Shown here piece by piece: positions 6,301 to 26,912 of a DNA stretch of 33,377 nucleotides (position 1 is the first letter of the stretch; each line of letters starts with the position of its first letter). Location: positions 1 through 33,377 of the IMG/VR virus record IMGVR_UViG_3300020172_002341; one strand, given 5' to 3'. The position numbers were made by a program, and so were the translations under genes. The notes beneath the pieces are model-generated. The model was given only the letters and a program-made list of their open reading frames with translations, did no database searches and was not told the origin of the DNA. Source of the stretch: a virus.

Positions 6301-8382
6301 TCTAAGTTATTTGGTTATAACTTCGGACAAGGACCTGTGGTATCGGGTCAATTCTATATGAACATACCAATCCAACCTAACTCAGGTTCAGGTACGTGGT
6401 GGTACGATAGTAAAACTCCTGAATCCCATAGTGTTTCATATGCAACATCCAAACTATATCATACACCATTTAATTTTAATACTGGTACACAATTTAGTTC
6501 CGTAACATCAAACACCATTAGATATTATTCATCATTAGATAAATCAACTAACACCATAACCGCAAATGGTGGATTATCTTTATCAACATACACTAATAGT
6601 GGTTTAGGTATTAGTGATAATGGAAACTCACAACAACAAATTAGATTTTATGATGCGACGTACCAAGGAAGAGTTGAGGGTGGTGCTTTAATGGCGTCAA
6701 GCAATAGTGTTAATAATAATACGATAAATGCGCTTAGTAGTTACAATGGTAGATTATATAGTCCTGTTTACGGAACAATTTCATATACTATACCATCAGG
6801 TACTAACCCTAAATTAGTACTTAGGTCCGATAGATTACCAACATCAGATACTCAACAAACATTCGGAACACGTTCTATGTTATTACACCAAAATGACAAA
6901 TTTGCGATGTACGTAAATAATAATAGTGGACCATCAACCGTGTTTTCAACAACCGCAACCGATACCACTAATAATGCTCAAGACTTAAACCCTGACGGAC
7001 CACCAACTACAGCTAGTAGTGTGTTATCTACTTTTGATTGTGCAGGTATGGTACCATTAGATTGTTACCAAGTTGACCCAACAACCAACAGCTTTAGTGT
7101 TTTATCACCTTGTTCTCAAAATCAAAATCCCGTTAGAATCAAGTCTGGATGTTATCAGTTTATACAAAAACCTTATGTTGCGAATATTGTTAAAGATTTA
7201 GAAAATTTCTCAGAATGGAAGGCTAGATTTAGAATGATGTTCGGTGCGTGTAGAGGAATATTCTCACACGTATTCCAAAATAATTGGGTGAATGGGACAT
7301 TATATATGTTTTCATTCAAAAAACAAACAATAGTTTCAATATTAGGTCAACCGAAACAATACAAGTATTGTGGAACATATGAAAGTAATGTTAGACCGGG
7401 ACAAGGACCAATATTCTATACTTCAGGTTCTACAAATTCATTCTTCTATCGCTCAACACCTTATAATGGGGCAAACTTTGTGGGTCAAATACCCCAACAA
7501 GGAACTTACAGTAACCCAACTCCGGTTCCTGTTGATTTTGGAGGTGCTAATGATAGAAACATTATGTTCCCAACGACAATAATGGATTTAGGTCCAAGAG
7601 ATGAATTTACAAATGAAATATGTAATAACCCACAATTCCAAGGTTATTTAATTGATAGCGTTAAATCCACATCCTTTAATGATACTTCTGATTTATTACA
7701 ATTATTTATAATTTCACGATTGATTAATACGAACTTTTTAGGGTCTTTATTAGGTCTTGGCGATGCATCTATTAATAAATTATTCTCTAGAAGTGAAGAT
7801 AGATTAGATGGTGATTTAACACAACTATTTAGTATTAATTCAGAGTATGGAGTTGCTGGGTTTAGTGAAGATGAGTATGATGGTGTTAACGATATCTATA
7901 TTGCAACATCAGGTCCTGCAACACTTGGAGTATTCTTTACATCTAATACTGAAAATAGAATAGTTTTAACTCCCGGTATTACAACATTTACACCCCAATT
8001 AACTAATTTCTTTGGATATCCAAAAACACAAGAAGTACCATTCTACCAGTGGACGTTAAACCAACAACAAGTACCAACTATATTTGGTTCAGATATAAAT
8101 GATTGGAACACTAACTTAATAGGTGGTGGTTTTTATAAACAAAAGTATCAAACGTTAAGTTTCACTCAAGCTCCATTCTCACAATACTTTAATAACTTAT
8201 CGACAGGTCAAAAAGGGTTTATCTATAATTCAAATGCAAGTGGTAACGATACTACATTTCCTGCGGGACAATCAAATAGTTTCTTAGTAGGTGCACCTTA
8301 TCATTTTTATTTCGGACTAAACAAAGGTAAAAGCGCCATCAACAGGTACATAACAAAATATATTTTCAATCAAGATGTCTAA
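3379..8382 (+). CDS. Very large baseplate-region virion protein with transthyretin-like N-domain and internal membrane-like segment
   Basis: The 1667-residue product is not recognised as a named T4 protein. Residues about 50-165 look like a carboxypeptidase-regulatory/transthyretin-like fold: VAGRVIVNGGYGVPNANVSIF near the start of the domain and NESGDFMIIGAPLG near its end. Residues about 492-592 are almost wholly hydrophobic, with four or more possible membrane helices, unlike any neighbour. A compact cysteine group follows (C604, C607, C609, in CEACPCD). The rest, about 620-1667, is Asn/Thr/Ser-rich beta-type sequence typical of tail proteins. It lies between the gp6-like gene and other virion genes, so a baseplate or tail-tip role is likely. 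The hydrophobic block could be buried in the particle or enter the host membrane during infection; this is inference. Its last 8 bases overlap the next gene. No signal peptide is seen. Confidence 0.8.
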   Translation: MTKSYRIRTAPGTDKNIRVNINQDFDFLEILSLKLRQEDVYTRFCADYGVVAGRVIVNGGYGVPNANVSIFVPLDAIDENDPVISTLYPYTSVDTKNEDGYRYNLLPYRQEYSGHKPTGTFPDREDILTRTEVLEVYEKYYKFTVKTNESGDFMIIGAPLGIQTLVLDLDLSNIGCFSLRPADLVRAGLANAEQFDGDQFKSSTDLGSLPQIVNIKQDVEVTSFWGENEICNIGITRADFDLRDFGIDIKPHAVFMGSIFSTADEDFLKTNCKPKKDSGNLCDLVTASGTILAIRQTINYDDNGRPILEQHSLPEGGKVIDDDGTWLVEVPMNLDYVTTNEFGEQILSNDPAIGIPTKAKYRFRIKYQNEDGLNNDILRADYLVPNVKEWGWTGTNPPAGSSEQLKSYAFSLDWEDYGDTTTSIGQQMIQEAIDCEDRFYEFNYNKVYTIAHFLDRWKWGYNRSRHLGIKEITDRRCTTTTNRFPVNDGVKNFDFIFFLFNLFVTIFTPVFVALIPVLHVLALVWPILKWVIAIVFPLFLLQTAIYMGLAAIAAFPAVGLIVLYGALAIIFAGAATLFAIKVAPMLVKFKFKGITLPMMSYPDCEACPCDIDDLQTDDIQGGIFGGGGNQSAKIGKYTVNTRTSGSILVDVNSNNLFINAPNTNLCNFDSNGDQILQSGYPTYFCTIDPESYSGSENKRNTKYQADSFGIRYGIAGYPTAPEIGMPVVTKFSEDKHYPNRDVTLSHSLNLANLRIRYFDTTAPNIIKTTINTNNPPIYDNVMMLVVDQNTVAQLQTGSLVTFTNPDNITDINLTGASITNQFGTNSITGSTQTSTTVPITYINQNGNPQTTQVQITGNTGGKEYLFKTGLEYFQVITGMTLNQLDLTTNGIKLNNQPNPNSQLDTTNIIRKYILNKLQRITYKDNSGSGDNGQFRNEVINPLTIMGNTWKNLEIVFLVRGVDPYTDTQNIEYDLSKLFGYNFGQGPVVSGQFYMNIPIQPNSGSGTWWYDSKTPESHSVSYATSKLYHTPFNFNTGTQFSSVTSNTIRYYSSLDKSTNTITANGGLSLSTYTNSGLGISDNGNSQQQIRFYDATYQGRVEGGALMASSNSVNNNTINALSSYNGRLYSPVYGTISYTIPSGTNPKLVLRSDRLPTSDTQQTFGTRSMLLHQNDKFAMYVNNNSGPSTVFSTTATDTTNNAQDLNPDGPPTTASSVLSTFDCAGMVPLDCYQVDPTTNSFSVLSPCSQNQNPVRIKSGCYQFIQKPYVANIVKDLENFSEWKARFRMMFGACRGIFSHVFQNNWVNGTLYMFSFKKQTIVSILGQPKQYKYCGTYESNVRPGQGPIFYTSGSTNSFFYRSTPYNGANFVGQIPQQGTYSNPTPVPVDFGGANDRNIMFPTTIMDLGPRDEFTNEICNNPQFQGYLIDSVKSTSFNDTSDLLQLFIISRLINTNFLGSLLGLGDASINKLFSRSEDRLDGDLTQLFSINSEYGVAGFSEDEYDGVNDIYIATSGPATLGVFFTSNTENRIVLTPGITTFTPQLTNFFGYPKTQEVPFYQWTLNQQQVPTIFGSDINDWNTNLIGGGFYKQKYQTLSFTQAPFSQYFNNLSTGQKGFIYNSNASGNDTTFPAGQSNSFLVGAPYHFYFGLNKGKSAINRYITKYIFNQDV

Positions 8383-12137: not shown

Positions 12138-13046
12138 ATGGCATTAGGAACATACGGTATAGTAAGACCCTCAGATGTATCACCCGCCGACGTTGATATT
12201 ATTTTACATTATACACCAAGTAGAGATGTAACAGATAATTTTTTACTTAAAAAATTAAACTCACAAAGTATATTAACACCATACTTTCATAGTTCAGAAA
12301 CGGGTGGAAATACAGATATTGAAGTTTTAGGTGGTTTATATAACTTAAAATTACCTGCAAGTGAATTCAATAAAAAGGGTATATACACTTTATATATTAA
12401 ACCTGCAGAAATAAGAACTACCATAACAGATTGTGGTGTTTTATCCGCATTACCTAATGTGAAGGGTATTATAATAGACATTAATCAGGTACCTGCTCAG
12501 TTCAGAAACAAGTTTACAAACCAAGGGTTAGTTGGTTTTAGAGTTGAATATTTAAATCAAGACGGAAGTAAGATACCAAATTTTTATAGAATAGTTACTT
12601 CATCATTCTTTTGTGAACCTGTAGTAACAGAACAAGTTAATTCATCACAGAAAACGATTAGGTATCGTTATGTTGATGGAGGTAGTGATTTAGTATTTTG
12701 TACTTTATCACCATCATCTTCACCAACTAACAAACCAACCGCAACACCTTTTATTGGTCAACCAAATCAAAATATTATTGTTTCTAACACTTTCTTTAAT
12801 CCAATCACCATTGATATACAAATGGCGGACTACGATTTAGATACGATGGCAATTGCGTTGTATGGTAACCAAACTAAAAGTATTGAAGACGGAATATACA
12901 CACTTTACGATAGTAATAACAACATTTACAAACAATACAACTTGTTTGAGGTTAGAGATAACTTTAATGAATTATTATATGAGGTCAGACAAGATAGAGG
13001 TGGTAACATAGATTTCAGTAAAAACTTTACAAATATTATTACTTAA
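12138..13046 (+). CDS. Predicted baseplate/tail structural protein, function unknown
   Basis: The 302-residue product is not recognised. It starts MALGTYGIVRPSDVSPADVDI, and the C-terminal third (residues about 225-302) has ITIDIQMADYDLDTMAIAL, then a short beta hairpin and LFEVRDNFNELLYEVRQD. A Ser/Pro/Thr-rich loop (SPSSSPTNKPTATP) lies near residues 190-205. A TATTTATA element precedes it, and its stop overlaps the next start (TAATG), so it is coupled to the 1120-residue gene. Close pairing with that large tail protein suggests that they interact, but the sequence alone gives no function. Confidence 0.7.
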   Translation: MALGTYGIVRPSDVSPADVDIILHYTPSRDVTDNFLLKKLNSQSILTPYFHSSETGGNTDIEVLGGLYNLKLPASEFNKKGIYTLYIKPAEIRTTITDCGVLSALPNVKGIIIDINQVPAQFRNKFTNQGLVGFRVEYLNQDGSKIPNFYRIVTSSFFCEPVVTEQVNSSQKTIRYRYVDGGSDLVFCTLSPSSSPTNKPTATPFIGQPNQNIIVSNTFFNPITIDIQMADYDLDTMAIALYGNQTKSIEDGIYTLYDSNNNIYKQYNLFEVRDNFNELLYEVRQDRGGNIDFSKNFTNIIT

Positions 13047-16000
13047 TGGCAAATAAAATATTCTTCCCACCTATTGGAACTAATACTTTCGCAGATAATA
13101 TTGTCGGAGTTCAAATAACTGATGGCGGAGGTTTAACGCAAGGTAATTTTCAGTTTACATCCGCAATTTACGAAAAATCTAACAGAAAGTTCGATACTGG
13201 TGTGTTTTCGGAAGGTTATACTTTAGAGAACCTGAAGATTAATAATATCGAAGAAGCCAAAAGAATTATTGAAAAAAACTTTAAAGTTTACCCAAATTAC
13301 GATTTATCAGAAGTAACAAGTTTTTCATTATATGGTTCATTGGCAAAAAGACTATCGTCATCCGCAATTAAGATAATTAACAATTTTCCAGCAGCAATTG
13401 AAGTATTGGCGTTACATCAATCAGGACTTCTTACCGGTCAAACTGCATACAATATAACTTACGACGCGGTTGAGGATGAGACCACATTCGATATGGATAG
13501 TGTTCTATTCAGAAACCCGTTTGAGGTTGACTTTTCGGTTAATGCTAGAAGAAATATCGAAGTAAAACCATTCCCAATTCACCCGATTAGGGCCTTGACG
13601 TCTGAGTTTGAAAATTACGCTTTATATTTTGAAACATTAAATAATGAGTACCCGCTTACGGATTTTGTACCAACACAAAGTTTATCTGGTGGTACTGTAA
13701 CATTAACAGTACAAGGTAATCCGTTTAGTGGTGTAAGTGCAACTACGGCATCATTAATAATAAAACCAAATAACTCAAAGACTCAAGAAATATTTAACGA
13801 TGCCTTTGATGAGGTTGAGAAGTTTCTTTTAAATCAAAATAGTGCTCCTAAATACACTGCAAAGTTTTCATATCCTGATTATGATGATAGTGGAAAATAC
13901 ACTCTTTATAATAGAAAGGTAACTTGGACTCTTAATAAATTTTGGAACTTAGACATTACAAGTTCATTATTCAACAAATATTTGGATGACCTTCAGTTAA
14001 TTGCTGAAAAATTAGACGAGTATAAAACTAACTTAATTAGTAGATTTTTAATTACGGGAGCTTTCAAGGAATTCGACACTACGGACCAAAAAATTGAAAA
14101 GGTCTTACAAATTTATGGTAGAAGTTTTGATGAGGTTAAAAAGTTTATTGATAGCTTAGCTTATATTAATTCAGTTACTTATCAAGTTGGAAATGACATA
14201 CCATCACAACTTTTATCTAATTTGGCTCAAACATTGGGAATCAACCCTAATATTTCACCGATTACTAATGAAGGGTTTTTAACTTCAGTATTTAACCCGA
14301 CACCTCAGCAGATATATGAAGGTCAAAAAAACACACCAACACCAACAGAATTAAATTATCAATATTATCGAAATTTAATATTGAACGCGGCGTACATGTT
14401 TAAAACGAAGGGAACAAGACAATCCTTAGAATATGTAATGAGATTTATTGGTGCTCCTGATGCCCTTGTAGAATTTAACGAGATAGTTTATGTTGCTGAC
14501 ACCAAGATTAATGTCGATAAGTTTAATCAACAATATGCGCAAATTTCAGGAGGGACTAAGTTTGAGAGTATCCCTAGTTTAGATAATGCGAACATCTTTA
14601 GTGTCCAAGGGGTAACATATACGGGATACACAAGTAGTGGTCTTATAAAGTTAGTGAACACTACTTTGGGTGATTATGGTATAGATTCCGATGGATACCC
14701 ACAAAGTCCACAACAAACAGGGGATAACTTCTTTCAAAAAGGTGCAGGTTGGTTTGAAAAAAGCCCGAAACACCGTTCGGTTGAAACTGTAGACTCTAAA
14801 AACTCACAATTTACGGGTTCAAACCCTTATTTAGTGACTGAAATTGCACCATTTAATTTCGGACAAGAATATTTGGATTCTTTACGAAAGTTTCCAGATA
14901 TGGGGGTTGGTTATACATTAAGAAGAGTATCGGACAACCAAAAATCTTGGCCTGTAAATCAAGTAGGGTCAAGAAAAAATAATTCAAATTTTAATGGTGT
15001 TGATTATAATGTATCAGACGATAAGTTAGTTATTAACTCAAAAAATATTGAGTTGTATATGAATATGGGACAAGGTATAACTTACGACGTATGGGATATG
15101 TCAGTTAAGTATAATTACCCTATACCTAATTCAGGATTAACGGCTCCTTATCCATATCCTGGAAATATTGATTGGACAGTAATTAACCCTAAACCAAAAG
15201 AAAAAACATTCTTTGAATTTGCTCAGACTTTCTACAATAATTTTATTAACGTTAGAAACAGACAGACAATATTTGACGGAAAGACAGGTGGATACCCTAC
15301 TTTACAATCAATTTATTGGAAGTACTTACAATCACAACAAACGGTAGGAATACCTTCCAATAATTACACATATCAGAAGATGATTGATTTCACATTAGGT
15401 GTTGGTGATTATTGGCAAAGACTTTTAGAACAGGTTGTACCAGGTACCACTTTGTGGTTAACAGGTCAAAAAATGGAAAACTCAATCTTCCACAGACAAA
15501 AATATGTTTGGAGAAGACAAAGAGGATGTCAAATTATACCTGTGGAATGTATCCCCTGTAAATATACGGGGCAACCTTTCGCTTATGATTGTATAGACCA
15601 AACTCTTAAGTGTGAATTAGTTTTAGACGGGGCAAATGTATTACAATCGCTACTTGCATCATTACTTAGTGGAAGTGGATATACTCAAAACCAATGTGAT
15701 TTAAATAGTATTGTTTCTAGTTGGTATGTTGATTGTCGTTTAGATAATCAAATTTTAATACAATCACAATTTTATACAGGGTATGGGTTAAATGATTACC
15801 CAACACAAACCCAACTATTAAATGCGTTAGATACTGAATTAGATGGACTATACCAGCACGGTTTGAATTATTACTTTGCAGGTAACCAATTGATTGTTAG
15901 TAATTCTACTTGTTATGATGATTTTACAAATAGTACATTATCATTAAACATTGGTTTAGATATCGATATTAATTGTACACCGTCGTCTGCAACTCCTACG

Positions 16001-16408
16001 CCAACACCTACACCGACTCCAACTCCTACACCAACCGCAACACCATCATATGTGAATTCGACTTTCTATTTCGGTTCACCAGTGACAACAACACCAAACA
16101 ATGTTAGTTTTGTGTTTAGAATAAATGGTGGTTCTTGGGTATATGTTAATAACCAAACGGTGGGTAACAAACCGTCAGCAACACAACTTTATAATTCATA
16201 TATGAATTCATTTATTGTTGGTGATACTTTGGAATTTGGTATTTTAAATGGTTCGGGTAATAATATTACATTCGGACTTGGAAACAACTCAGGTACGTAT
16301 ACCGGTTATTGTGGATTAATTTCTTACTACACTTATACTATTCCTAGTACAAACTTTGATTTGTACATAAACATACAAGACACTGGTAGTGGATATGTAA
16401 TTTGTTAA
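13046..16408 (+). CDS. Large baseplate/tail protein with tail-protein-I-like core, Thr-Pro linker and extra C-terminal domain
   Basis: The 1120-residue product is a probable baseplate wedge protein, possibly equivalent in position to T4 gp7 (1032 residues). The best clue is residues about 437-480, YYRNLILNAAYMFKTKGTRQ followed by SLEYVMRFIGAP, a pattern shared with phage tail protein I-like and wedge proteins. Residues 1-430 are mixed helical and beta. Residues about 856-976 form a Cys-containing domain that is clearly related to the C-terminus of the following SprB-repeat protein (shared pattern: LDGL or LDGI, then a strand ending in SNSTC or TSNC, then a final strand). A Thr-Pro linker (about 983-1000) connects to a final beta domain of about 120 residues. 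So a conserved baseplate body seems to carry a fused, exchangeable surface module. The gp7 equivalence is uncertain. Confidence 0.78.
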   Translation: MANKIFFPPIGTNTFADNIVGVQITDGGGLTQGNFQFTSAIYEKSNRKFDTGVFSEGYTLENLKINNIEEAKRIIEKNFKVYPNYDLSEVTSFSLYGSLAKRLSSSAIKIINNFPAAIEVLALHQSGLLTGQTAYNITYDAVEDETTFDMDSVLFRNPFEVDFSVNARRNIEVKPFPIHPIRALTSEFENYALYFETLNNEYPLTDFVPTQSLSGGTVTLTVQGNPFSGVSATTASLIIKPNNSKTQEIFNDAFDEVEKFLLNQNSAPKYTAKFSYPDYDDSGKYTLYNRKVTWTLNKFWNLDITSSLFNKYLDDLQLIAEKLDEYKTNLISRFLITGAFKEFDTTDQKIEKVLQIYGRSFDEVKKFIDSLAYINSVTYQVGNDIPSQLLSNLAQTLGINPNISPITNEGFLTSVFNPTPQQIYEGQKNTPTPTELNYQYYRNLILNAAYMFKTKGTRQSLEYVMRFIGAPDALVEFNEIVYVADTKINVDKFNQQYAQISGGTKFESIPSLDNANIFSVQGVTYTGYTSSGLIKLVNTTLGDYGIDSDGYPQSPQQTGDNFFQKGAGWFEKSPKHRSVETVDSKNSQFTGSNPYLVTEIAPFNFGQEYLDSLRKFPDMGVGYTLRRVSDNQKSWPVNQVGSRKNNSNFNGVDYNVSDDKLVINSKNIELYMNMGQGITYDVWDMSVKYNYPIPNSGLTAPYPYPGNIDWTVINPKPKEKTFFEFAQTFYNNFINVRNRQTIFDGKTGGYPTLQSIYWKYLQSQQTVGIPSNNYTYQKMIDFTLGVGDYWQRLLEQVVPGTTLWLTGQKMENSIFHRQKYVWRRQRGCQIIPVECIPCKYTGQPFAYDCIDQTLKCELVLDGANVLQSLLASLLSGSGYTQNQCDLNSIVSSWYVDCRLDNQILIQSQFYTGYGLNDYPTQTQLLNALDTELDGLYQHGLNYYFAGNQLIVSNSTCYDDFTNSTLSLNIGLDIDINCTPSSATPTPTPTPTPTPTPTATPSYVNSTFYFGSPVTTTPNNVSFVFRINGGSWVYVNNQTVGNKPSATQLYNSYMNSFIVGDTLEFGILNGSGNNITFGLGNNSGTYTGYCGLISYYTYTIPSTNFDLYINIQDTGSGYVIC
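15992..16045 (+). repeat. Thr-Pro codon repeat (linker DNA)
   Basis: Tandem six-base units (ACN CCN) encode alternating Thr and Pro in the 1120-residue protein. The same kind of tract occurs in the genes at 19738 and 22336. Confidence 0.85.
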
Positions 16409-16425
16409 AATTGATTTTATAAAAA

Positions 16426-18720
16426 ATGGCTTGTGTTTCGGGATTAACTAATGGTGTTTATAATTATGTGGATTGTTGCGGTGTAACAAGATATGGTGCG
16501 TCGCTTGGGGAAAGTATATGTTTAGATGAGAATTTCACAGGGACGTCTTATGGTGTTTTAATCGCAACAGGACAAACTTGTACTATAAATTGTATACAAG
16601 GGCCTCTTGATTATAGTTTTACAGTTTCTGGTGCCTGCTCAACAGCGACGGGCTCAGTTATCATTTCACCAACAGGGGGTGTTCCACCCTATACTATTGA
16701 TAATATAATACCTGGCTCCATAAGTGCTCAAACTAGTTTTAATCCGATTAGTTTCACCGGCTTAACAGGTGGTACTTATGTGTTTAGATTAAATGATACT
16801 TTAGGTAATCAAAACAATGAATTATTTATAAATGTTGCAATAACACCCTGTTTTCAAGGAAAGGTAATAATTGCAAGTGGTACTACCTGTGGAGATACAA
16901 ATGGTTTTCTACAGGTAAGTGCATCAACTACGGGTTCACCGTATACTATTCTATTTTATAAAGATGGTGTGTTACAAAGTGTGGACACCACAAACTCACT
17001 ACCATTCGATTATAATGGTTTAGATAGTGGTATATATTACGCAACTATAGTGGATATTGGTGGTACTACAGCAAATACTGAAAATGCGGTTATAAGTGCT
17101 AGTACATCTTTAGATTTTGGATTTTGGAAAGTTAATACGTCAAATTGTGTAACAAATTGGGGTAAATTGGCGGTTACGGGGGTAACAGGTGTTGGTCCAT
17201 TTACTTACTTATGGAGTAATGGGGAAACTACACAAATCATTACGGGATTAACCCAAGGGATTTATTCGTGTACGGTAACTGACTCTATAGGGTGTGAGAC
17301 TATTAAATCAGAGACTATTGGTGTTGCAGACCCATTAGGTTTATCCTTTTTAACTGCAACACAACCAAATTGTTTTTCATCTGATGGTGAATTAACATTC
17401 ACGATTAGTGGTGGTTCACAACCTTTATATTTTTCGGGGTCATCTAGTCAAGTTGGATATACATTATCAGATACATTCACACTTACAGGTTTAACGTCAG
17501 GTTACTATAGTGTGTTAGTAAGAGATGCGAATTTCTGTGAAATAGTTGTGGGAGGGTACTTATTACCAGCAAACGGATTTAGTGTTGTTGGAACTACAGT
17601 CACTAACTCGTCTTGTAATATAACAAATGGGTCAATAGGTGTCACTCTTGCAGGTGCCAATGGTTTCTACACCTATTCACTTTCTGGATTAAGTACCAAT
17701 ACTGTTCAAACAAACATATCACAGAACCAAACTTACACGTTTTCTAATTTAACAAACGATACGTACTTACTAACGGTAAGTGGAAGTGGGACACAATGCG
17801 TATATACTGAGACAATTACGATAGATTCTACTGAAAAGTTCTCAATTACAACCTCAACTACGGGCTCAACCTGTGGACAGACAAATGGGGTTGTTGATGT
17901 AACACTATCAACGGGTTATACACTACCTTTAAATTACGTGTTAAGTAACGGTAATACGATATTAAATACAACACTTACCTCAACAACTTATAATAATTTA
18001 AGTATTGGTTCTTACACTTTAACCGTAACAGATAATGATGGATGTTCAGTATCAACTGGATTTACAATTAATAGTGGAGGTAGTTTAATTACTGGTTTAA
18101 GTACGGTAAATTGTACCAACGGTAATAATGGTAGTGCTTCGGTTATTATATATGATGGTGAGCCGCCATTCACTTATTTGTGGTCAAATGGTTCTACAGG
18201 GACTACTATTAGTAATCTATCTTCAGGTCTTTATGATGTAACAATAACAGATGCGTCAGGATGTACCGATACGCAGTATTTTACACTGAACTGCATTGGA
18301 AACCTTGTATCAAACTACCAAACCTTCAACTTATGTAACAATACATTTACAACAACAACTGGAAATCAAAGAGGTATGTTGGAAATGTTAAATGAAGGAT
18401 TTATTGATATTACTTCAGGGTACACTAATTGTACATTAAATTCTGCAGAGCTAACTTGTGAAATAATCGTTAATGGAAGTGCCTTTACTGAAACATTTTA
18501 CACGGCAACAACATTGAATGATGTACCACAAGACACTTTATGGCAATCAACAATCGAATCAATCCTTGACGGTATCAGTGACATTCAGTCTTACCAAATA
18601 GATTTATTAAATAACACTTTAACAATAACCTCAAATTGTAATGGTGATTCTGACCCATTATCGGATGCCGATTTTAGTTTGAATTTGACTATTGTTTATG
18701 ATGTAGTCTGCGGAGTGTAA
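16426..18720 (+). CDS. SprB-repeat adhesin, probable tail fibre
   Basis: The 764-residue product holds about seven consecutive units of the SprB-repeat type, each about 70-80 residues. The units near residues 228-300 and 554-623 are canonical: a FTYLWSNG motif (W263 and W586), then ISNLSSGLYDVTITDASGC and its equivalent ITGLTQGIYSCTVTDSIGC. SprB is the mobile gliding adhesin of Flavobacterium; this repeat family is widespread in Bacteroidota surface proteins. The N-terminus (residues 1-55) is Cys-rich. The C-terminal 85 residues are related to residues 856-976 of the preceding baseplate protein. There is no signal peptide or type IX secretion C-terminal domain, as expected for a virion protein made in the cytoplasm. 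A fibre role in host contact is inferred from context. Its stop overlaps the next start (TAATG). Confidence 0.85.
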   Translation: MACVSGLTNGVYNYVDCCGVTRYGASLGESICLDENFTGTSYGVLIATGQTCTINCIQGPLDYSFTVSGACSTATGSVIISPTGGVPPYTIDNIIPGSISAQTSFNPISFTGLTGGTYVFRLNDTLGNQNNELFINVAITPCFQGKVIIASGTTCGDTNGFLQVSASTTGSPYTILFYKDGVLQSVDTTNSLPFDYNGLDSGIYYATIVDIGGTTANTENAVISASTSLDFGFWKVNTSNCVTNWGKLAVTGVTGVGPFTYLWSNGETTQIITGLTQGIYSCTVTDSIGCETIKSETIGVADPLGLSFLTATQPNCFSSDGELTFTISGGSQPLYFSGSSSQVGYTLSDTFTLTGLTSGYYSVLVRDANFCEIVVGGYLLPANGFSVVGTTVTNSSCNITNGSIGVTLAGANGFYTYSLSGLSTNTVQTNISQNQTYTFSNLTNDTYLLTVSGSGTQCVYTETITIDSTEKFSITTSTTGSTCGQTNGVVDVTLSTGYTLPLNYVLSNGNTILNTTLTSTTYNNLSIGSYTLTVTDNDGCSVSTGFTINSGGSLITGLSTVNCTNGNNGSASVIIYDGEPPFTYLWSNGSTGTTISNLSSGLYDVTITDASGCTDTQYFTLNCIGNLVSNYQTFNLCNNTFTTTTGNQRGMLEMLNEGFIDITSGYTNCTLNSAELTCEIIVNGSAFTETFYTATTLNDVPQDTLWQSTIESILDGISDIQSYQIDLLNNTLTITSNCNGDSDPLSDADFSLNLTIVYDVVCGV

Positions 18721-18998
18721 TGCCTTATCAAGTAATCATAACAGGAGAAACAGGAGGAACACCACCATATAGTTTATATGTGTGCGATGAATATGGTAAT
18801 AATTGCCAACTATTAGGTGTTTCTGGAGGTACATTTACATTATCACCTTTACTACAAACCGCAAATACCGTAATGGTAAAAATCGTAGACTCAACAGGAT
18901 GTGAGTATTTTGAAATAGTAAGTTGCCCAAGCGCATATTTATTACAAGAGAACGGGTTTTATATTTTACAAGAGAACGGGTTCAAAATATTTTTATAA
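18720..18998 (+). CDS. Small Cys-containing tail-associated protein, single SprB-like unit
   Basis: The 92-residue product begins in the previous stop (TAATG). Residues about 4-68 follow the pattern ITGETGGTPPYSLYVCD, C, VKIVDSTGCEYFEIVSC. This matches the first 70 residues of the protein at 19738 and the protein at 23936, so the window holds three members of one small family. The GGTPPY start and VDSTGC end look like one shortened SprB unit. The tail is a tandem peptide repeat (LLQENGFYILQENGFKI) caused by a 17-base direct repeat. The function is unknown. The coupling to fibre genes suggests a fibre tip, connector or chaperone. Confidence 0.75.
   Translation: MPYQVIITGETGGTPPYSLYVCDEYGNNCQLLGVSGGTFTLSPLLQTANTVMVKIVDSTGCEYFEIVSCPSAYLLQENGFYILQENGFKIFL
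18942..18982 (+). repeat. 17-base direct repeat, period 24, inside the 18720 gene
   Basis: TTACAAGAGAACGGGTT occurs at 18942-18958 and again at 18966-18982, giving two exact copies in frame (eight codons apart). It encodes LQENGF twice. Confidence 0.9.
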
Positions 18999-19000
18999 TT

Positions 19001-19738
19001 ATGGATTTAAGAATTTCACAATTACCATTTGTCACTTCAGGTTCACCAAACGCAATAATGGCGATTGTTGACTATACAAGTGCGGTTACAGGAACCACAA
19101 GTGCAATATATTTTTCATCAATAACTAATAGTATAAGTGGAGGTACAGGCACAAACGGAACGTCAGGAACTAATGGGACTAACGGCACTTCAGGTACAAA
19201 CGGAACGTCAGGAACTAATGGGACTAACGGCACTTCAGGTACAAACGGAACGTCAGGAACTAATGGGACTAGTGGAACGAGTGGTGGTGGATTTTGGGGT
19301 TCATTTGTTTCGTTAGTTAGTCAATATGTTGGAAGTACAACTACGGCATATTCTATGAGTGCGGCAACTCAAACTTCCGGAAACGGTGTTATTGTTTCTG
19401 CCAACACAAGATTTATTGTTGCAAGTGCTGGAACATATAATCTTCAGTTTTCATGTCAAATTGAATCAACGGGAGGTGGAAGTACTCAAACTATGGATAT
19501 TTGGTTAGCAATTAACGGTAATAACGTAAGTAACTCAAATACTCAAGTTGTTGGGAATTCAAATAACGGTAGGGCTGTCGCGGCATGGAATTTTGTTGAA
19601 CCAATGAATGCTGGTGATTATTTTGAATTGAAATTTAGAGTAAGTGATACTAGATTGGGATTTGCCTACGATGTTGCAGCAATAAACCCAACAAGACCCG
19701 CAATACCATCGGTAATTGTGACAGTAACCCAAGTATAA
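19001..19738 (+). CDS. Collagen-like tail fibre protein with C1q-like head
   Basis: The 245-residue product has an N-terminal anchor (residues 1-48, MDLRISQLPFVTSGSPNAIM onward, a start seen in phage fibre proteins), a run of Gly-Thr-Asn and Gly-Thr-Ser triplets (about 49-95), and a C-terminal beta-sandwich (about 98-245). The head has the C1q/TNF-like pattern: NTRFIVASAGTYNLQFSCQI, MDIWLAINGNNV, AAWNFVEPMNAGDYFELKF. Such fibres trimerise through the Gly-X-Y stem. I place the start at ATG 19001; the frame is open further upstream to 18923, but that extension overlaps the previous gene and is not fibre-like. Its stop overlaps the next start as TAATG. A receptor-binding role is inferred. Confidence 0.85.
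   Translation: MDLRISQLPFVTSGSPNAIMAIVDYTSAVTGTTSAIYFSSITNSISGGTGTNGTSGTNGTNGTSGTNGTSGTNGTNGTSGTNGTSGTNGTSGTSGGGFWGSFVSLVSQYVGSTTTAYSMSAATQTSGNGVIVSANTRFIVASAGTYNLQFSCQIESTGGGSTQTMDIWLAINGNNVSNSNTQVVGNSNNGRAVAAWNFVEPMNAGDYFELKFRVSDTRLGFAYDVAAINPTRPAIPSVIVTVTQV
19148..19271 (+). repeat. 45-base tandem repeat encoding the Gly-X-Y stem
   Basis: A 45-base unit (five Gly-X-Y triplets) is present in nearly three perfect copies, starting at 19157, 19202 and 19247, with the third copy cut short. Copies are identical at nucleotide level, including synonymous positions, so the expansion is recent. The stem length can probably change by slippage or recombination. Confidence 0.92.
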
Positions 19739-20256
19739 TGTTAATTGAAATAACAGGAGTAACAAGTGGTAATAGTCCTTATGATATATATTTATGTACG
19801 TGGGACCTAAGCTCTTGTTTTTTTATTTCCGGCTCGACCACAATACCACCAACCGTTACAATAAACACTGATAATTATTTCCCAAACAACGAACTACTAC
19901 AAATAAAAATAGTAGATTCAAGTGGGTGTATTTTTACGGACCCCCAACCCTGCATCCCAACCCCTACACCAACACCAACCCCAAGTCCAACTCCAACCCC
20001 AAGTCCGACACCTACAGTAACACCGACTCCAACACCCACACCAACGCCAACGCCAGCATGTACTGAGTATTCAATATACAATGGTACCGACGCTATTATA
20101 CAAGTTATATTCACTCCGTGTTGTGGTGAAATACAAGTATCACCATATGGTTTATCAAAAGGCGCAACATTAAGAATATGTTCGTCAACATATCCTTCAA
20201 CAATTACATCACCCTCGATTACTATAACAACCGTAGGTTCTTGTCCATCTTGTTAA
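19738..20256 (+). CDS. Thr-Pro-linker protein with small SprB-like N-domain and Cys-containing C-domain
   Basis: The 172-residue product starts in the previous stop (TAATG). Residues 1-72 (ITGVTSGNSPYDIYLC ... IKIVDSSGCIF) belong to the same small family as the proteins at 18720 and 23936. Residues 74-106 are an almost pure Thr-Pro/Ser-Pro linker. Residues 107-172 form a compact domain with five cysteines (a CC pair in FTPCCGEIQVSP and a CPSC end). It therefore looks like a base domain, a stiff stalk and a tip domain. The linker is a possible O-glycosylation site, and two glycosyltransferase genes follow 48 bases downstream. The function is otherwise unknown. Confidence 0.75.
   Translation: MLIEITGVTSGNSPYDIYLCTWDLSSCFFISGSTTIPPTVTINTDNYFPNNELLQIKIVDSSGCIFTDPQPCIPTPTPTPTPSPTPTPSPTPTVTPTPTPTPTPTPACTEYSIYNGTDAIIQVIFTPCCGEIQVSPYGLSKGATLRICSSTYPSTITSPSITITTVGSCPSC
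19957..20058 (+). repeat. Thr-Pro/Ser-Pro codon repeat
   Basis: Imperfect six-base units encode about 16 Thr-Pro or Ser-Pro pairs. The opposite strand reads as Gly-Val repeats, which is only a shadow. Confidence 0.88.
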
Positions 20257-20304
20257 TTTTATTATTGTTTTTTTACTATTAAGAACTATCATAGAAAAAA
20301 AACT

Positions 20305-21501
20305 ATGAAAATATTCGTTCAAATAGCGTCTTATCGAGACCCCGAACTTCTACCAACCATTAGAGATTGTATTGATAAGGCAAAGTATCCTGAAAATTTA
20401 ACTTTTGGTATTTGTTGGCAACGTGATGAAAATGAATCTATGGGTGAGTTTGAAAACGACCCAAGATTTAGAGTTTTAGATTACCATTGGTCAAAGAGTA
20501 AAGGTCTATGTTGGGCTCGTTCTGAGATTCAAAAACTGTGGGAAGGTGAAGAATATACCTTACAACTTGATTCACACCACAGATTCTTACAGGATTGGGA
20601 TGTTGAATTGATTGAAATGATGAAACTTACAGGTTCAAAAAAACCAATCATCACATCATATGCAGGAATGTATAGACCGAGTGATAATCAATTATTGAAT
20701 GTTGAACCATATAAAATGGTTGCGTCAAACTTCACACCAGGTGGAACCATTCTTTTTAGACCACACACTATTGAAAATTGGGAAACATTAGAAAAACCAA
20801 TACCTGCTAGATTTGTTAGTGGACACTTCTTTTTTACAATCGGAAAACATTGTGAAGAATATAAGTACGACCCAAACATTTATTTTGCGGGAGATGAAAT
20901 TAGTTTATCAATCAGGTCATTTACATTAGGTTATGATTTATTTCACCCACATAAAACTGTGGTGTGGCATGAATACACAAGAGAAGGTAGAACAAAACAT
21001 TGGACGGACTTTAACACAGAAAATCTAACAACGGGTATTGTTGAAAAACCGTGGTGGGAAATGGACAATGATTCAAAAAGAAGATTGAGACATATGTTAC
21101 AAGAAGAAGATAATAACATCGACTTAGGTATCTATGGTCTTGGAAATGTGAGAACACATAACGATTACGAACTTTATTCTGGAATTAACTTCAAAGAAAG
21201 AATGTTACACCCAAATACCATCAAAGGTGTGAATCCACCGATTAATGATGAAACAGAATGGTATTTGAAAGAAAAAGAAACTTTCAATTTAGAATTAGAA
21301 ATACCATATATTGAAAATTTTAAATTCATCTATATTGGAGTAGAAGATAAAAATGGTGAAGTGATGTACAGACAAGATTTAACAACTTACCAAGAAAAAT
21401 TAAATATAAAAATCGAATCATTCGAGAAACCACATAAGTGGGTTTATTGGGTGAACGACATAAACGGAGAATGGATAAATAGAAACGATTACTTACTATG
21501 A
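20305..21501 (+). CDS. Glycosyltransferase, GlcNAc-transferase family (Skp1-type)
   Basis: The 398-residue product starts MKIFVQIASYRDPELLPTIR, a hallmark of the GlcNAc-transferase family that includes the enzyme modifying hydroxyproline of Skp1. A D-x-H metal-binding motif is present in LDSHHRF (D89, H91), followed by WDVELIEMM, SYAGMYRP and a FVSGHFFFTIG segment, and YFAGDEISLSIRSFTLGYD, which matches the acceptor-side acidic motif of the family. The catalytic part ends near residue 240. Residues about 325-398 look like a small extra beta domain. It probably uses a UDP-sugar in the host cytoplasm. The target is not shown by the sequence; the neighbouring Thr/Pro-rich virion proteins are the natural candidates. 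It overlaps the next glycosyltransferase by four bases (ATGA). Confidence 0.88.
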   Translation: MKIFVQIASYRDPELLPTIRDCIDKAKYPENLTFGICWQRDENESMGEFENDPRFRVLDYHWSKSKGLCWARSEIQKLWEGEEYTLQLDSHHRFLQDWDVELIEMMKLTGSKKPIITSYAGMYRPSDNQLLNVEPYKMVASNFTPGGTILFRPHTIENWETLEKPIPARFVSGHFFFTIGKHCEEYKYDPNIYFAGDEISLSIRSFTLGYDLFHPHKTVVWHEYTREGRTKHWTDFNTENLTTGIVEKPWWEMDNDSKRRLRHMLQEEDNNIDLGIYGLGNVRTHNDYELYSGINFKERMLHPNTIKGVNPPINDETEWYLKEKETFNLELEIPYIENFKFIYIGVEDKNGEVMYRQDLTTYQEKLNIKIESFEKPHKWVYWVNDINGEWINRNDYLL

Positions 21502-22295
21502 ATATAGGAGCATTTTATCAATCAGGGTACAAATTGGTTGCATGTTATAAAGCATTAGAACAATTAAGAAAAATATACCCAAGTATACCTGTGGCTCTTT
21601 ATGAGGATGGTTCAGATGTGTTAAAACCAGTTGCAGATAAATTTAATTGTGTTTATAAAAGAACAGATGTATTAGGTCAAAATTTAAAACATTCAGGTAG
21701 ACCTGTTCTTGGTTTGGAAAGTAACTTAGCGTGGTTACGAAGAATATACGATGCTTGTACTACAACACTCAAAGATGTGGAGTGGGTTATACATTATGAA
21801 GATGACGTATGGTGTAAAAATGAGATTACATTACCACCGAAACACGACATTGCGGGAGCCAATGGTCCGGCATATACAAATGAATTATATCAGTACTTAA
21901 AAGATAAATTTGGTGTTACTGACGAATCAAGAAATCATTGGTCAAGACAAGGTTCCTTACAAAGTTATGGTGGATGTGGTGGAACAATATTTAATCGTGA
22001 AAAATTTATTGATGCTTATAATAAGTTAGATGAAATAGATTGGGAAAAAATTCGTGAAATGGATACAAGACCGATTGAATGGTCAGATGCGAGTTTGTCT
22101 TTTGTTTTCCAACATGCCGGATACACTAGTGGTATTTGGGAAGATTGGGCACAATATGATAGTAAAAATCAAGGAAATTGGTGGGATAAGTCAGGATGGA
22201 GCGTTTCAATGGAAGAGCAACCTAACGTGGCTTTTATTCATTTATACAAACATTTTTACAATTATGAACCTGAAGACATAGATTTAGATTTATAA
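21498..22295 (+). CDS. Second glycosyltransferase (GT-A type)
   Basis: The 265-residue product starts in the stop of the previous gene (ATGA), so the two are made together. It has a nucleotide-sugar fold: MNIGAFYQSGYKLVACYKAL at the start, then VALYEDGSD, and the key acidic motif HYEDDVW (E101, D102, D103), which would bind the metal and sugar nucleotide. A glycine-rich acceptor loop (SYGGCGGTIFNREKF) and a late acidic motif (EWSDASLSFVFQHAG) complete a GT-A pattern. There is no membrane segment, so it acts in the cytoplasm. It could extend the sugar placed by its neighbour. The donor and acceptor cannot be read from the sequence. It is followed by a 40-base gap with a TATTTATA element. Confidence 0.8.
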   Translation: MNIGAFYQSGYKLVACYKALEQLRKIYPSIPVALYEDGSDVLKPVADKFNCVYKRTDVLGQNLKHSGRPVLGLESNLAWLRRIYDACTTTLKDVEWVIHYEDDVWCKNEITLPPKHDIAGANGPAYTNELYQYLKDKFGVTDESRNHWSRQGSLQSYGGCGGTIFNREKFIDAYNKLDEIDWEKIREMDTRPIEWSDASLSFVFQHAGYTSGIWEDWAQYDSKNQGNWWDKSGWSVSMEEQPNVAFIHLYKHFYNYEPEDIDLDL

Positions 22296-22309
22296 AATAA
22301 ACTTTTGAT

Positions 22310-22317
22310 TATTTATA
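22310..22317 (+). promoter_or_regulatory. Candidate late promoter element (TATTTATA)
   Basis: TATTTATA lies in the 40-base gap between the glycosyltransferase pair and the next fibre gene, 18 bases before its ATG. It fits the recurrent word seen before other tail gene groups. Confidence 0.38.
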
Positions 22318-22335
22318 TAATAAAGTAAAAACTTC

Positions 22336-23934
22336 ATGGGAGTTGTATTAAGTAGTTGTTGTTATAATATAGTTTATAGTGCCGTAACCGGATGGTCTGG
22401 ATTTACGACACCAGGATTAGTATTTAATATCACAGGTGACAGTAATTTACCTAACGGTTGTTATACAATAATGACTGGAACAACCGGAACTACAGTATCG
22501 TTTAATGGTTACGCCCAAGGGGTTGTAGGTTGTAACGACCCGTCGTGTTATGATTGTTGTTCAGATACGTTATGTATTGATATAAACAATACGACCTATA
22601 GTGGTTACAGTGGAAATTATCAAATTACAGGTGGATATAATTCATATCCATATTGGTCAGGGGGTAGTGGTAATAATGGGTTAATATACTACAATGGAAC
22701 ATTTTGGTGCTTGTCATCATCTTTAGGTGGTAGTTGTTTGTTTTTTGGTTCAAACCCAACAACATCTTTATGTCCTGATTTAGATGGAACTATAATGTAT
22801 ACCGGCTCTTGTGCCACACCAACACCACCGATTGACCCTTGTTCTTCTTTGGATTTTGATGTGTTATTGGAGTGTGAAATTACGACACCAACACCGACTC
22901 CGACACCCACACCAACTCCGACACCCACACCAACACCCACACCGACTGCAAACATATGTAGTGGGTTTACTGCAAATATTACGGTAGTGGATATTACACC
23001 AACTCCTACACCAACTCCTACACCAACTCCTACACCAACTCCAACGGTTACACCATCTGCAGATACGGTTACATTTGTGGTTGATAATGGGTTCTTTGAG
23101 TGTGCTACCGTTAAAGAATTGGTTGATTGTAATACAGGTGAAAAATATTACATTAGCGGACCGTTGTTAATTTCAGGTACAAGTGCTACTACTGTAACAA
23201 CCACAGGTACTACAGTTTACGGTATTATCAATGGAAATACTATTTGTGCAACATATACACAAAATATTAATGGAAGTGCAAATGCTTATGTACAGTATAT
23301 TATAACGGCATATACAGGAAATTGTTCCGTGTCTTGTGTTACACCAACACCTACACCAACAGCAACTCCAACTCCAACACCAACCCCAACACCTACACCA
23401 ACACCAACACCGACATATGCATTTGGTACCTCGTTTGTGTTCACTTCGTGTACTTCTAATAGTATGATTACTCAAACGGCATACCCACCAAACAATGTAA
23501 CAATCGGACAAGTTCTTAAAACAACAAGTGGTGATTGTTATACGTATGTTGGAAATTATATAAATTACGTTGCACCATCAGGATATGTGGTTGCAAACAT
23601 AAACGAGTTTACGGCAACTACTGCTACAACTTACACCGATTGTGTTGATTGTTTAACTGTGATACCTACATCTTCATCTTTTAAATCTTGGGACGGTAAA
23701 GGAGGATTCTCCTTAAATTGTCCTGTTTGTCAAATTACTGACTTTGGAAAATCGTTGAGGTTCTATACTTCTAATTTAATTACCACATTAACAACAGGAG
23801 TTTATGTATTCTCCGATAGTGGATTAACTAAACCAATAGTTGAGGACTATATACAGTATGGAATTTATATCTATAGTGTAGGTAGAGACGGTATGTTAAC
23901 TCAATATTGCACAGTAAACGGAAATTGTAAGTAA
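22336..23934 (+). CDS. Cys-rich adhesin/fibre protein with three Thr-Pro linkers
   Basis: The 532-residue product is built from small Cys-containing domains joined by three Thr-Pro linkers, at residues about 183-206, 221-240 and 336-360. The N-domain (1-180) contains SCC near the start, a [10 protein letters not shown] cluster and a YYNGTFW motif that resembles a segment of the protein at 25320. The middle domain (about 241-335) has [16 protein letters not shown] and ends in GNCSVSC. The next (about 361-442) has GDCYTYVG and CVDCL, also similar to part of the 25320 protein. The last 90 residues include [18 protein letters not shown]. This beads-on-stiff-rods design suits a long surface fibre. 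The linkers may be O-glycosylated by the enzymes encoded just upstream. The function is inferred; no homologue is named. Confidence 0.78.
22882..22949 (+). repeat. Thr-Pro codon repeat 1 of the 22336 gene
   Basis: Six-base ACN-CCN units run in tandem. The longer period ACACCCACACCAAC shows recent duplication within the tract. Confidence 0.85.
22996..23055 (+). repeat. Thr-Pro codon repeat 2 of the 22336 gene
   Basis: A 12-base unit (ACACCAACTCCT) is repeated exactly four times (22996-23043), indicating recent expansion, and then degenerates. Confidence 0.88.
23341..23415 (+). repeat. Thr-Pro codon repeat 3 of the 22336 gene
   Basis: A third tract of ACN-CCN units, with one Ala interruption. 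It is less regular than tract 2. Confidence 0.85.
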
Positions 23935-25319: not shown

Positions 25320-26912
25320 ATGGGACTTTTAAGCGGTAATAGTTGTAATATAATAACGTTGTTCCCACTAGGGTTACAATGTAGTTCAATTAATGCGTCA
25401 ACCCCGCAAGCGACAAATGGTGTGGTAACTCTTTACATAACAGGAGGGACTCCACCTTATAATGTTACTTGGAATACAGGGTCAAATGGAACATTACTCA
25501 CAAATTTAAGTCCTGGTGATTATACTGCAACTGTAGTTGATTATTATGGTGATTTTACAGGGACAACAACTTGTACTGTTGAATTTGATAGTTTTTACTT
25601 AGAAGAGTTTGAAGATTGTTCAAATAACGGAACATATGTCTATTACTTAGCAAATTTAGTTAACCCCCAATTTAGTGCAGGTACAATATATGAACTAACA
25701 ACACAAGTGGGTTGTTGGACTAATAGTGGAACTACATTATTTACGGGTCAAACTTATATCAATAACTTTGCTGATATTTTATCGGGACCTTACACAGGAT
25801 GTACTGAATGTCTTCCGGCACCTGCACCAACACCGTCATACCCATCACAACTTTGTTTCCAAGAAACACAAGGTAATAGTATTACTCAAACTAATTTTTC
25901 ATCAGGTTCTACAATAAATGGATTCCCTTCTTGGACGAGTATTACTCCGTCGTATTTAATGTATTATAACACCGGCACCACAAGATGGGAAGTTAGTGGA
26001 TACACAAATGGGTCAGTATATAGAATTTCACCAACAACACCACCAACAGGTAGTTGGGTGATAACAGGACCTAACGCATTTAATACAACAATTAATGTTA
26101 TTACAGGTGTTTGTGGTAATCCACCACTTACTTTAACTGTAAATGCTAATAGTCCATTATGTTCTACTCAGGCTAATGGGTCGGTTTCTATTGTTGGTAA
26201 TGGTGGAGTTCCGTCATATACTTACTCATTAAATGGAGTGACTTATCAAAACTCTAATACGTTCTTAAATCTTAATTCAGGTTCTTACACAGCATACATT
26301 AAAGATTCTTTAGGTACAATATCAACACAATCATTTACACTAACATCACAACAAAATTTCCAAAACTATAATGTTAATTTGGTGTTAACACAAGGTAATA
26401 CGGTATCTGTCGGAAATTCATTTACTAAAACATCAACTTGGTCGGTAAGTGTTTCTCCAACCCCATTACCTGTGGGAGTTACTGTGAATATGAATCTATT
26501 ATTTAACATTGGTTGGACGGGATACACATCATCACCAACTATCGGACCTACAATAACAAATTCAATAACAACTAATAGTAATCCAAATACTACGGTTACC
26601 TTACTATCTTCCGGTAATACAACTGGCACGACAACGTTAAGACCTAATTGTGAAGATTCATTAATTAATACTAGTGCTAGAACAACAACATATTCAGTAC
26701 AACTATCTTCGAATGGATTTGCATCAGGAACAGTTGTTCAGTATATAAACACTCCTTGTAGCACTATGAACGGATGTCCAAACAGCGGAATTTTGAAAGA
26801 CACTATATCGATACAAAATATAACAATATCACCAAACCAATGTAGAAGTATAAGTACTAATGTGGCTTCACAAGTAACAACATTGGCGAAAACTGGAATT
26901 ATTTGTGAATAA
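25320..26912 (+). CDS. Adhesin/fibre protein with two SprB-type repeats
   Basis: The 530-residue product has SprB-like units at residues about 19-78 (ITGGTPPYNVTWNTGSNGT then LSPGDYTATVVD) and about 270-335 (GNGGVPSYTYSLNGVTYQN then LNSGSYTAYIKDSLG). Between them are two modules shared with the 22336 protein: about 121-165, ending in GCTECL, and about 190-250, with YLMYYNTGTTRWEVSGY. The last 190 residues are Thr/Ser/Asn-rich with several cysteines and no recognised domain. It is the last gene of the adhesin block, six bases after the YadA-like fibre. Function by analogy: host-surface contact. Sharing of modules with a neighbour points to recombination among the fibre genes. Confidence 0.8.
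   Translation: MGLLSGNSCNIITLFPLGLQCSSINASTPQATNGVVTLYITGGTPPYNVTWNTGSNGTLLTNLSPGDYTATVVDYYGDFTGTTTCTVEFDSFYLEEFEDCSNNGTYVYYLANLVNPQFSAGTIYELTTQVGCWTNSGTTLFTGQTYINNFADILSGPYTGCTECLPAPAPTPSYPSQLCFQETQGNSITQTNFSSGSTINGFPSWTSITPSYLMYYNTGTTRWEVSGYTNGSVYRISPTTPPTGSWVITGPNAFNTTINVITGVCGNPPLTLTVNANSPLCSTQANGSVSIVGNGGVPSYTYSLNGVTYQNSNTFLNLNSGSYTAYIKDSLGTISTQSFTLTSQQNFQNYNVNLVLTQGNTVSVGNSFTKTSTWSVSVSPTPLPVGVTVNMNLLFNIGWTGYTSSPTIGPTITNSITTNSNPNTTVTLLSSGNTTGTTTLRPNCEDSLINTSARTTTYSVQLSSNGFASGTVVQYINTPCSTMNGCPNSGILKDTISIQNITISPNQCRSISTNVASQVTTLAKTGIICE

Follow-up and report, generated by a model that had tools for sequence, protein, structure and literature searches.

Enzymes of glycosyltransferase (GT) families GT60 and GT27 share a DxH motif and place together as polypeptide Ser/Thr O-glycosyltransferases (PMC7185993). 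In Trypanosoma cruzi, GT60 enzymes initiate the glycans of mucins by forming GlcNAc-alpha-Thr (PMC9472816, PMC3769586), and gp72 contains a Thr/Pro domain, near-identical in letters to the phage linkers described below, for which O-glycosylation has been predicted (PMC3630849). In the mycobacteriophages Che8 and Corndog, phage-encoded glycosyltransferases act on structural proteins, as far as the passages citing this work report (PMC12619734, PMC11256854). GT60 mucin-type initiation in protists and virion glycosylation by phage enzymes in mycobacteriophages are both already known, and the search of the open-licence literature found no report that connects GT60 and Thr-Pro runs with phages or bacteria. 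The IMG/VR virus record IMGVR_UViG_3300020172_002341 (33,377 bases; "the window" is this whole stretch of analyzed DNA) carries a GT60 gene, GT1, and a second glycosyltransferase gene, GT2, among genes whose products contain Thr-Pro runs. With a probability of about 0.6, this cassette is a virion O-glycosylation system for the phage's own Thr-Pro tail/adhesin proteins.

The GT1 (20305-21501, + strand, 398 aa) and GT2 (21498-22295, + strand, 265 aa) genes overlapped by ATGA, which represents translational coupling, and the coupled pair that had been read from the DNA alone was thereby confirmed. The only Pfam match of GT1 was PF11397 ("GlcNAc"), with an E value of 2.9e-65 and 221.5 bits against a curated cut-off of 21, and the protein also matched the glycosyltransferase family phrog_24687 (E 1e-103). 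GT1 was modelled with AlphaFold 2 (AF2) together with 32 phage and bacterial relatives (pLDDT 93.6). In the model, a GT-A domain (residues ~1-324) was followed by a C-terminal beta-sandwich (~325-397), which could be a carbohydrate- or peptide-binding module replacing the lectin domain of GT27. The DSH motif (D89, S90 and H91), a DxH and not a DxD, was invariant across the 32 relatives. With Foldseek, all 50 of the 50 matches listed for the model were polypeptide GalNAc-transferases (best E 2.7e-12). The top 29 rows given by VIA belonged to the same enzymes, with Z scores of 19.3-22.8 across 258-282 residues, and the ranking dropped to other GT-A enzymes from Z 17.7, apart from one Leptospira enzyme at 19.1. 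By the predicted structure, the nearest fold of GT1 is that of the polypeptide O-glycosyltransferases, the identity to the nearest solved folds being 14-17%.

GT2 had no match by sequence in Pfam, PHROG or the PDB, and the PDB search with GT1 and GT2 gave no useful match. Its AF2 model (pLDDT 82.5, pTM 0.86) had 262 PDB matches at E<=1e-3 with Foldseek, and the best 50 of the 262, those listed, were all glycosyltransferases, GT6 enzymes included. In VIA the best match was chondroitin synthase (Z 14.7), followed by C1GalT1 (12.6), Fringe (12.4) and a galactofuranosyltransferase (11.7). The Z scores to GT31-type folds were 12-15, with GT6, LgtC and GT2-family folds scoring nearly as high. The sequence EDDVW was invariant in GT2. 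By its predicted fold, GT2 is a GT-A glycosyltransferase, and many of its structural neighbors extend protein-linked sugars, with donor and linkage left unfixed by the modelled fold. GT60, GT2 and UDP-galactopyranose mutase were found in one operon of another phage (L013:9977-13103), a hint of a galactofuranose donor; the assignment of GT2 as a galactofuranosyltransferase, which this operon prompted, gained no wider support, the mutase being present in only 1 of 22 records. Both GT1 and GT2 were without a membrane segment or signal, which fits enzymes working in the cytoplasm, the site of tail-protein synthesis.

Six Thr-Pro runs were found in three window proteins around the enzyme pair, and all linkers named by the original prediction (one in the gene at 19738, three in that at 22336 and a further one in the 1120-residue protein) were recovered. 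The 172-aa protein (19738-20256, + strand), a likely adhesin or decoration protein and putative acceptor, contained two runs (19960-20016 and 20020-20058) with one residue between them, effectively one linker (19960-20058, + strand). The 532-aa protein (22336-23934, + strand), the putative main acceptor, contained three: (TP)10T (22885-22947), (TP)8T (22996-23046) and again (TP)8T (23365-23415), all on the + strand. The 1120-aa structural protein (13046-16408, + strand) contained a single (TP)7T linker near its C-terminal domain (15992-16036, + strand). The 10 consecutive TP units of the 532-aa protein compared with a maximum of 3 in 2000 shuffles, so the runs are not due to chance. Within them Thr and Pro codons were synonymous mixtures, which indicates that the Thr-Pro peptide was kept and that the runs are no DNA microsatellite. 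Dense Thr-Pro acceptor candidates stand beside a putative initiator, as in a mucin-type system.

Comparison with related phages showed that the segment between the two Thr-Pro genes (20257-22335, + strand) is an exchangeable enzyme slot, whose contents differ among the relatives; the 532-aa protein was conserved directly downstream of it. A scan with GT1 gave 58 loci. Sampling blind to the enzymes, with the neighboring 735-aa protein as the anchor, covered 80 of 316 loci, which formed 51 clusters at 95% identity. GT60 was present in 28 of these clusters, and GT29 or GT34 occupied the same slot in 4 more. Thr-Pro runs were found in 31 of the 32 enzyme-slot clusters and in the window. Runs of at least 5 units persisted in 32 of the 33 slot-bearing lineages, and some enzyme was present in every one of the 33.

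The slot contents took several states. The window-type GT60 occurred either by itself or together with GT2. A diverged GT60 (40-49% identity) was found singly, paired with YibB (PF09612), or accompanied by a DUF3431 protein, two unknown open reading frames (ORFs) and YibB. A gene of the GT29 sialyltransferase family, a mostly eukaryotic family, was present on the opposite strand without GT60 in three loci (L082:5200-5787, L083:5222-5824 and L088:5227-5817; minus strand), GT34 without GT60 in L095, and a fragment of GT60 accompanied by GT25, YibB and sulfotransferase-like genes in L122. On the backbone tree of the 33 slot-bearing lineages the slot switched type at least 15 times. With shuffled labels the mean was 20.4 changes and no shuffle gave as few as 15, which indicates that inheritance still plays some part. 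Close sisters had different slot contents (L084/L091 and L104/L109). The retention of an enzyme through repeated replacement is independent evidence for the glycosylation of the Thr-Pro proteins, and the pair of the window is no fixed feature but one of the states that an exchangeable cassette has taken. Next to GT60, the gene neighborhoods of relatives also held candidate extending glycosyltransferases (GT2, YibB or others), an arrangement consistent with a mucin-type system. Among 48 of the unassigned ORFs of relatives free of slot enzymes, Pfam identified one GT2-family member; 2-oxoglutarate (2OG)-oxygenase-like members were also among them. In two slot-free relatives (L144:2601-3449 and L146:2774-3613), an FkbM methyltransferase lay upstream of the 735-aa anchor.

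The association of GT60 with Thr-Pro proteins was also found in unrelated phages, where the two lay beside or near each other in L017, L029, L034, L046, L053, L183, G015, G023 and G043 and at greater distance in L024, L031 and L048/L049. In G043 the order was run, GT60, YibB. Of 50 viral records picked by Thr-Pro DNA runs, 7 contained GT60, compared with 0 of 40 random records (p=0.016), and in four of the 7 the run and GT60 were within 2.5 kb of each other. The (TP)4 motif occurred in 0 of 28 random records. Among isolated phages, a relative of GT1 was present in only 3 of 50,697 records (Xanthomonas XacN1, Stenotrophomonas CM1 and RAS14); in XacN1 it was accompanied by a carbamoyltransferase, with one short TP run ~9 kb off, which neither supports nor refutes the association strongly. 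YibB as a general mark of phages with TP runs was rejected (1 of 50 records). The contig L373, filed as planctomycete, is probably that of a crAss-like phage (PF25729), and it held Thr-Pro proteins near GT60 on both sides.

Among bacteria, scanning GTDB contigs yielded 211 relatives from many phyla, of which the best 80 were kept, and T/P-rich ORFs were present in 22 of these 80 GT60 loci. Thr-Pro genes occupied 12 of 423 positions within three genes of GT60 and 0 of 222 farther out (p=0.011), the p values of these neighbor tests being approximate, with a simple ORF caller used and related loci included. Five of the Thr-Pro neighbors (L367, L380, L385, L386 and L389) started, by eye, with a twin-arginine (Tat)-like signal, which was followed by the Thr-Pro run. 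Proteins exported by Tat are completed while still in the cytoplasm, as would suit a cytosolic enzyme. The pairing of GT60 and YibB beside a Thr-Pro protein with a Tat-like signal was repeated in L385, with a Thr-Pro protein, GT60, a YibB-GT2 fusion and a sulfotransferase, and in L389 (Jiulongibacter sediminis, 3942-7227), with two GT60 genes followed by a carbamoyltransferase and an FkbM-YibB fusion. From its gene content the cluster of L367 (2459-9039) looks like a peptide-modifying one, with a Tat-like Thr-Pro protein, a GT60-radical-SAM fusion and, next to the latter, a PqqD-FucT-GT2 fusion. The substrates bound by PqqD domains are peptides, and the PqqD fusion points to protein targets. 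In two genomes, chosen after the Thr-Pro adjacency had been seen, the (TP)3 matches were confined to one gene: all five in 4.5 Mb of G130 (Jiulongibacter, C26) lay in a single gene flanked by two GT60 genes, the only clear ones of this genome, and all seven in 5.3 Mb of G129 lay inside a gene beside GT60. Strong GT60 matches were rare in the class of Jiulongibacter, being found in the center genome only among 295 genomes. In two Sphingomonas loci (L372:2388-5996 and L381:2387-6004), a 1200-aa protein that contained Thr-Pro runs as well as an Rv2525c glycoside-hydrolase domain directly adjoined GT60; by eye it was baseplate-J-like, possibly part of a contractile injection system.

The original claim, glycosylation of the phage's Thr-Pro adhesin stalks by the pair, was strengthened by the slot that was always filled while the runs persisted, by the GT60 genes beside Thr-Pro proteins elsewhere and by the predicted fold of GT1, and was amended in two points, the Skp1 analogy (see below) and the pair itself, which is not fixed. 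Several results weigh against this reading. Among the 19 clusters that lacked a slot enzyme, which were more distant, 13 had no run, but 6 kept short runs of 5-7, and L122 had slot enzymes without Thr-Pro runs. On the tree, the slots shifted between having and lacking an enzyme only twice, giving 2 independent pairs, so that the contrast between enzyme-free and enzyme-bearing relatives is not independent evidence, and the correlation with run length had no power. Outside the lineage, 43 of the 50 run-bearing viral records were without GT60, and 3 of the 7 with GT60 held it 12-70 kb from the run. No (TP)4 was found in 43-97 kb of the GT60 phages L013, L022, L038, L050 and L057, some of which had the same GT1 and GT2 pair. 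Finally, the modelled folds of GT1 and GT2 would fix neither the nucleotide sugar nor the acceptor. The original prediction would have been contradicted if phages regularly had the linkers but not the enzymes, or the enzymes but not the linkers; neither was the rule in this lineage, although both exceptions occurred outside it.

Under the proposed mechanism, GT1, a GT60 enzyme resembling the polypeptide GalNAc-transferases, would initiate glycans at Thr residues within the Thr-Pro runs, with UDP-GlcNAc as the probable nucleotide sugar. This would take place in the cytoplasm, on tail/adhesin proteins, prior to assembly, and GT2 would attach the next sugar after GT1. In relatives the second step may be replaced, by a YibB-type enzyme or by several genes, or the whole set may be exchanged for GT29 or GT34. 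The surface glycan would then vary between phages, on a mucin-like stalk that is retained. The possible benefit includes shielding from proteases, stiffening of the stalk, and masking from receptors, defence or grazers.

The genes around the pair are consistent with a virion location of the acceptors. Besides replication genes, the window encoded part of a ribonucleotide reductase, baseplate-wedge proteins and a series of large proteins resembling tail proteins or adhesins. The proteins flanking the enzymes are probably on the virion, judging from the gene order and domains: the Thr-Pro-linker genes sit downstream of the baseplate-wedge genes, and collagen-like, SprB-repeat and YadA-head-like stretches were identified by Pfam in the flanking proteins. 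The gene of a collagen-like (GTN/GTS)n tail-fibre-like protein (19001-19738, + strand; PF01391, E 1.4e-5; phrog_5073 tail fiber, E 7.5e-7) lay immediately upstream of the 172-aa protein gene and had gone unmentioned in the original prediction, and the ATG at 19001 is its likelier start because the listed TTG at 18923 overlaps the preceding gene. SprB-repeat proteins (PF13573) were encoded at 16426-18720 and 25320-26912, the former being 764 aa long and containing 16% Thr. The SprB repeat is known from the gliding adhesins of Flavobacterium.

These neighbors bear on the main one of the rival readings (ALTERNATIVES), according to which virion proteins are glycosylated and the main acceptor is another one: the collagen-like fibre, a putative alternative Thr-rich acceptor, the Thr-rich SprB-repeat proteins or another structural protein. 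The collagen-like gene is only one gene upstream of the neighbor of GT1, collagen-like stretches recurred near GT1 in about a dozen loci, the 764-aa protein is rich in Thr, and some GT60 phages were without TP runs. We consider this unlikely on balance, since most slot-bearing loci had no collagen-like stretches while almost none were without Thr-Pro runs, and the recurrent neighbor of GT60 outside the lineage, bacteria included, was a Thr-Pro protein.

Modification of a host surface polysaccharide (lipopolysaccharide or capsule) during infection, leading to superinfection exclusion or seroconversion, has a smaller chance of being correct than another virion acceptor. Phage glycosyltransferases of this kind are known in temperate phages, and bacterial GT60 occurred in many contexts. 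Some cassettes carried YibB-type and GT25/GT11 families, which also occur in envelope glycan loci. However, the cassette had neither a flippase nor a membrane anchor, its position was fixed between tail genes, and GT1 appears nearest to protein O-glycosyltransferases in its modelled fold. Moreover, the bacterial cassettes placed the same enzymes beside Tat-like Thr-Pro proteins, in one case with a radical-SAM fusion and in one with a PqqD partner.

The original prediction had assigned GT1 to the family of the Skp1 hydroxyproline GlcNAc-transferase. The GT60/PF11397 membership held, whereas the Skp1 analogy belongs to the weaker branch of GT60. A Skp1-like route, with hydroxylation of the prolines in the runs and transfer of GlcNAc to hydroxyproline by GT1, is quite improbable, even though the Skp1 enzyme is a GT60 member and half of each run is Pro. 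2OG-oxygenases were present in the relatives G114, G116, G117 and G119, and a host hydroxylase could serve, but 3 of these 4 records had no GT60 in the region. No prolyl 4-hydroxylase (PF13640) was found in the window or in 11 of 12 large GT60-bearing phage records. Because of this absence, and because the T. cruzi GT60 enzymes act on Thr, the acceptor is more likely Thr, and mucin-type initiation directed at Thr agrees better with the data than the hydroxyproline route does. Hypermodification of the phage DNA is the least probable reading of all: many phage glycosyltransferases do act on DNA, and the core glycosyltransferases of aquatic Bacteroidota jumbo phages (moraphages) have been discussed in this sense (PMC12619734), but the enzymes here were in the tail module and resembled neither DNA glucosyltransferases nor TET-associated enzymes, and 14 large relatives had no TET/JBP hydroxylase, a weak point because control genomes gave no match either and other hydroxylation routes were not searched.

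Beyond the glycosylation of the window's own Thr-Pro proteins, GT60 together with a Thr-Pro-run protein might constitute an undescribed cytoplasmic mucin-type O-glycosylation system of prokaryotes, for which we put the chance somewhat below even. In bacteria it would decorate Tat-exported Thr-Pro proteins; phages would have captured it for their adhesin stalks, with the extenders (YibB, GT29, GT34 and UDP-galactopyranose mutase partners) exchanged as a hypervariable surface-glycan cassette. To our knowledge, virion glycosylation has been demonstrated in few phages. If the present reading is true, it would be widespread and variable, through a common freshwater lineage with a mucin-like stalk, an initiator similar to those of animals and parasites, and swapped extenders, and the Thr-Pro linkers of many phage proteins would have an explanation. 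The results also point to a bacterial system, GT60 alongside Thr-Pro proteins with a Tat-like signal, that can be tested in culturable species, and to soluble bacterial enzymes with which mucin-type glycopeptides could be made.

Among the known systems, giant-virus collagen/fibres and Bacillus BclA are low-complexity fibres glycosylated by their own or host enzymes. They are set apart by collagen repeats in place of Thr-Pro runs and by other enzyme families. In the mycobacteriophages, the cited passages place the glycans at the C-termini of capsid and tail-tube subunits, where they shield from antibodies. The acceptors proposed here differ in being Thr-Pro adhesin stalks, with a GT60 initiator and a cassette among adhesin genes. 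The GT27 enzymes (GalNAc-T2 and others) have the closest solved fold to GT1 (Z 19-23) and the DxH in common with it, but GT1 appears to be without a ricin-type lectin domain and, with PF11397 as its only Pfam match, is probably not a GT27 member by sequence. T. cruzi TcOGNT and Dictyostelium Gnt2, both UDP-GlcNAc:polypeptide alpha-GlcNAc-transferases, and the Skp1 enzyme Gnt1 share the Pfam family and the DxH of GT1, and the acceptors of the GT60 mucin-type initiators are Thr-rich or Thr/Pro-rich runs (T. cruzi mucins and gp72), like the runs of the window. In contrast to the protist enzymes, the phage GT1 is predicted to be soluble and cytosolic and ends in a beta-sandwich; its acceptor would be a virion protein, and the extension enzymes are different and exchangeable.

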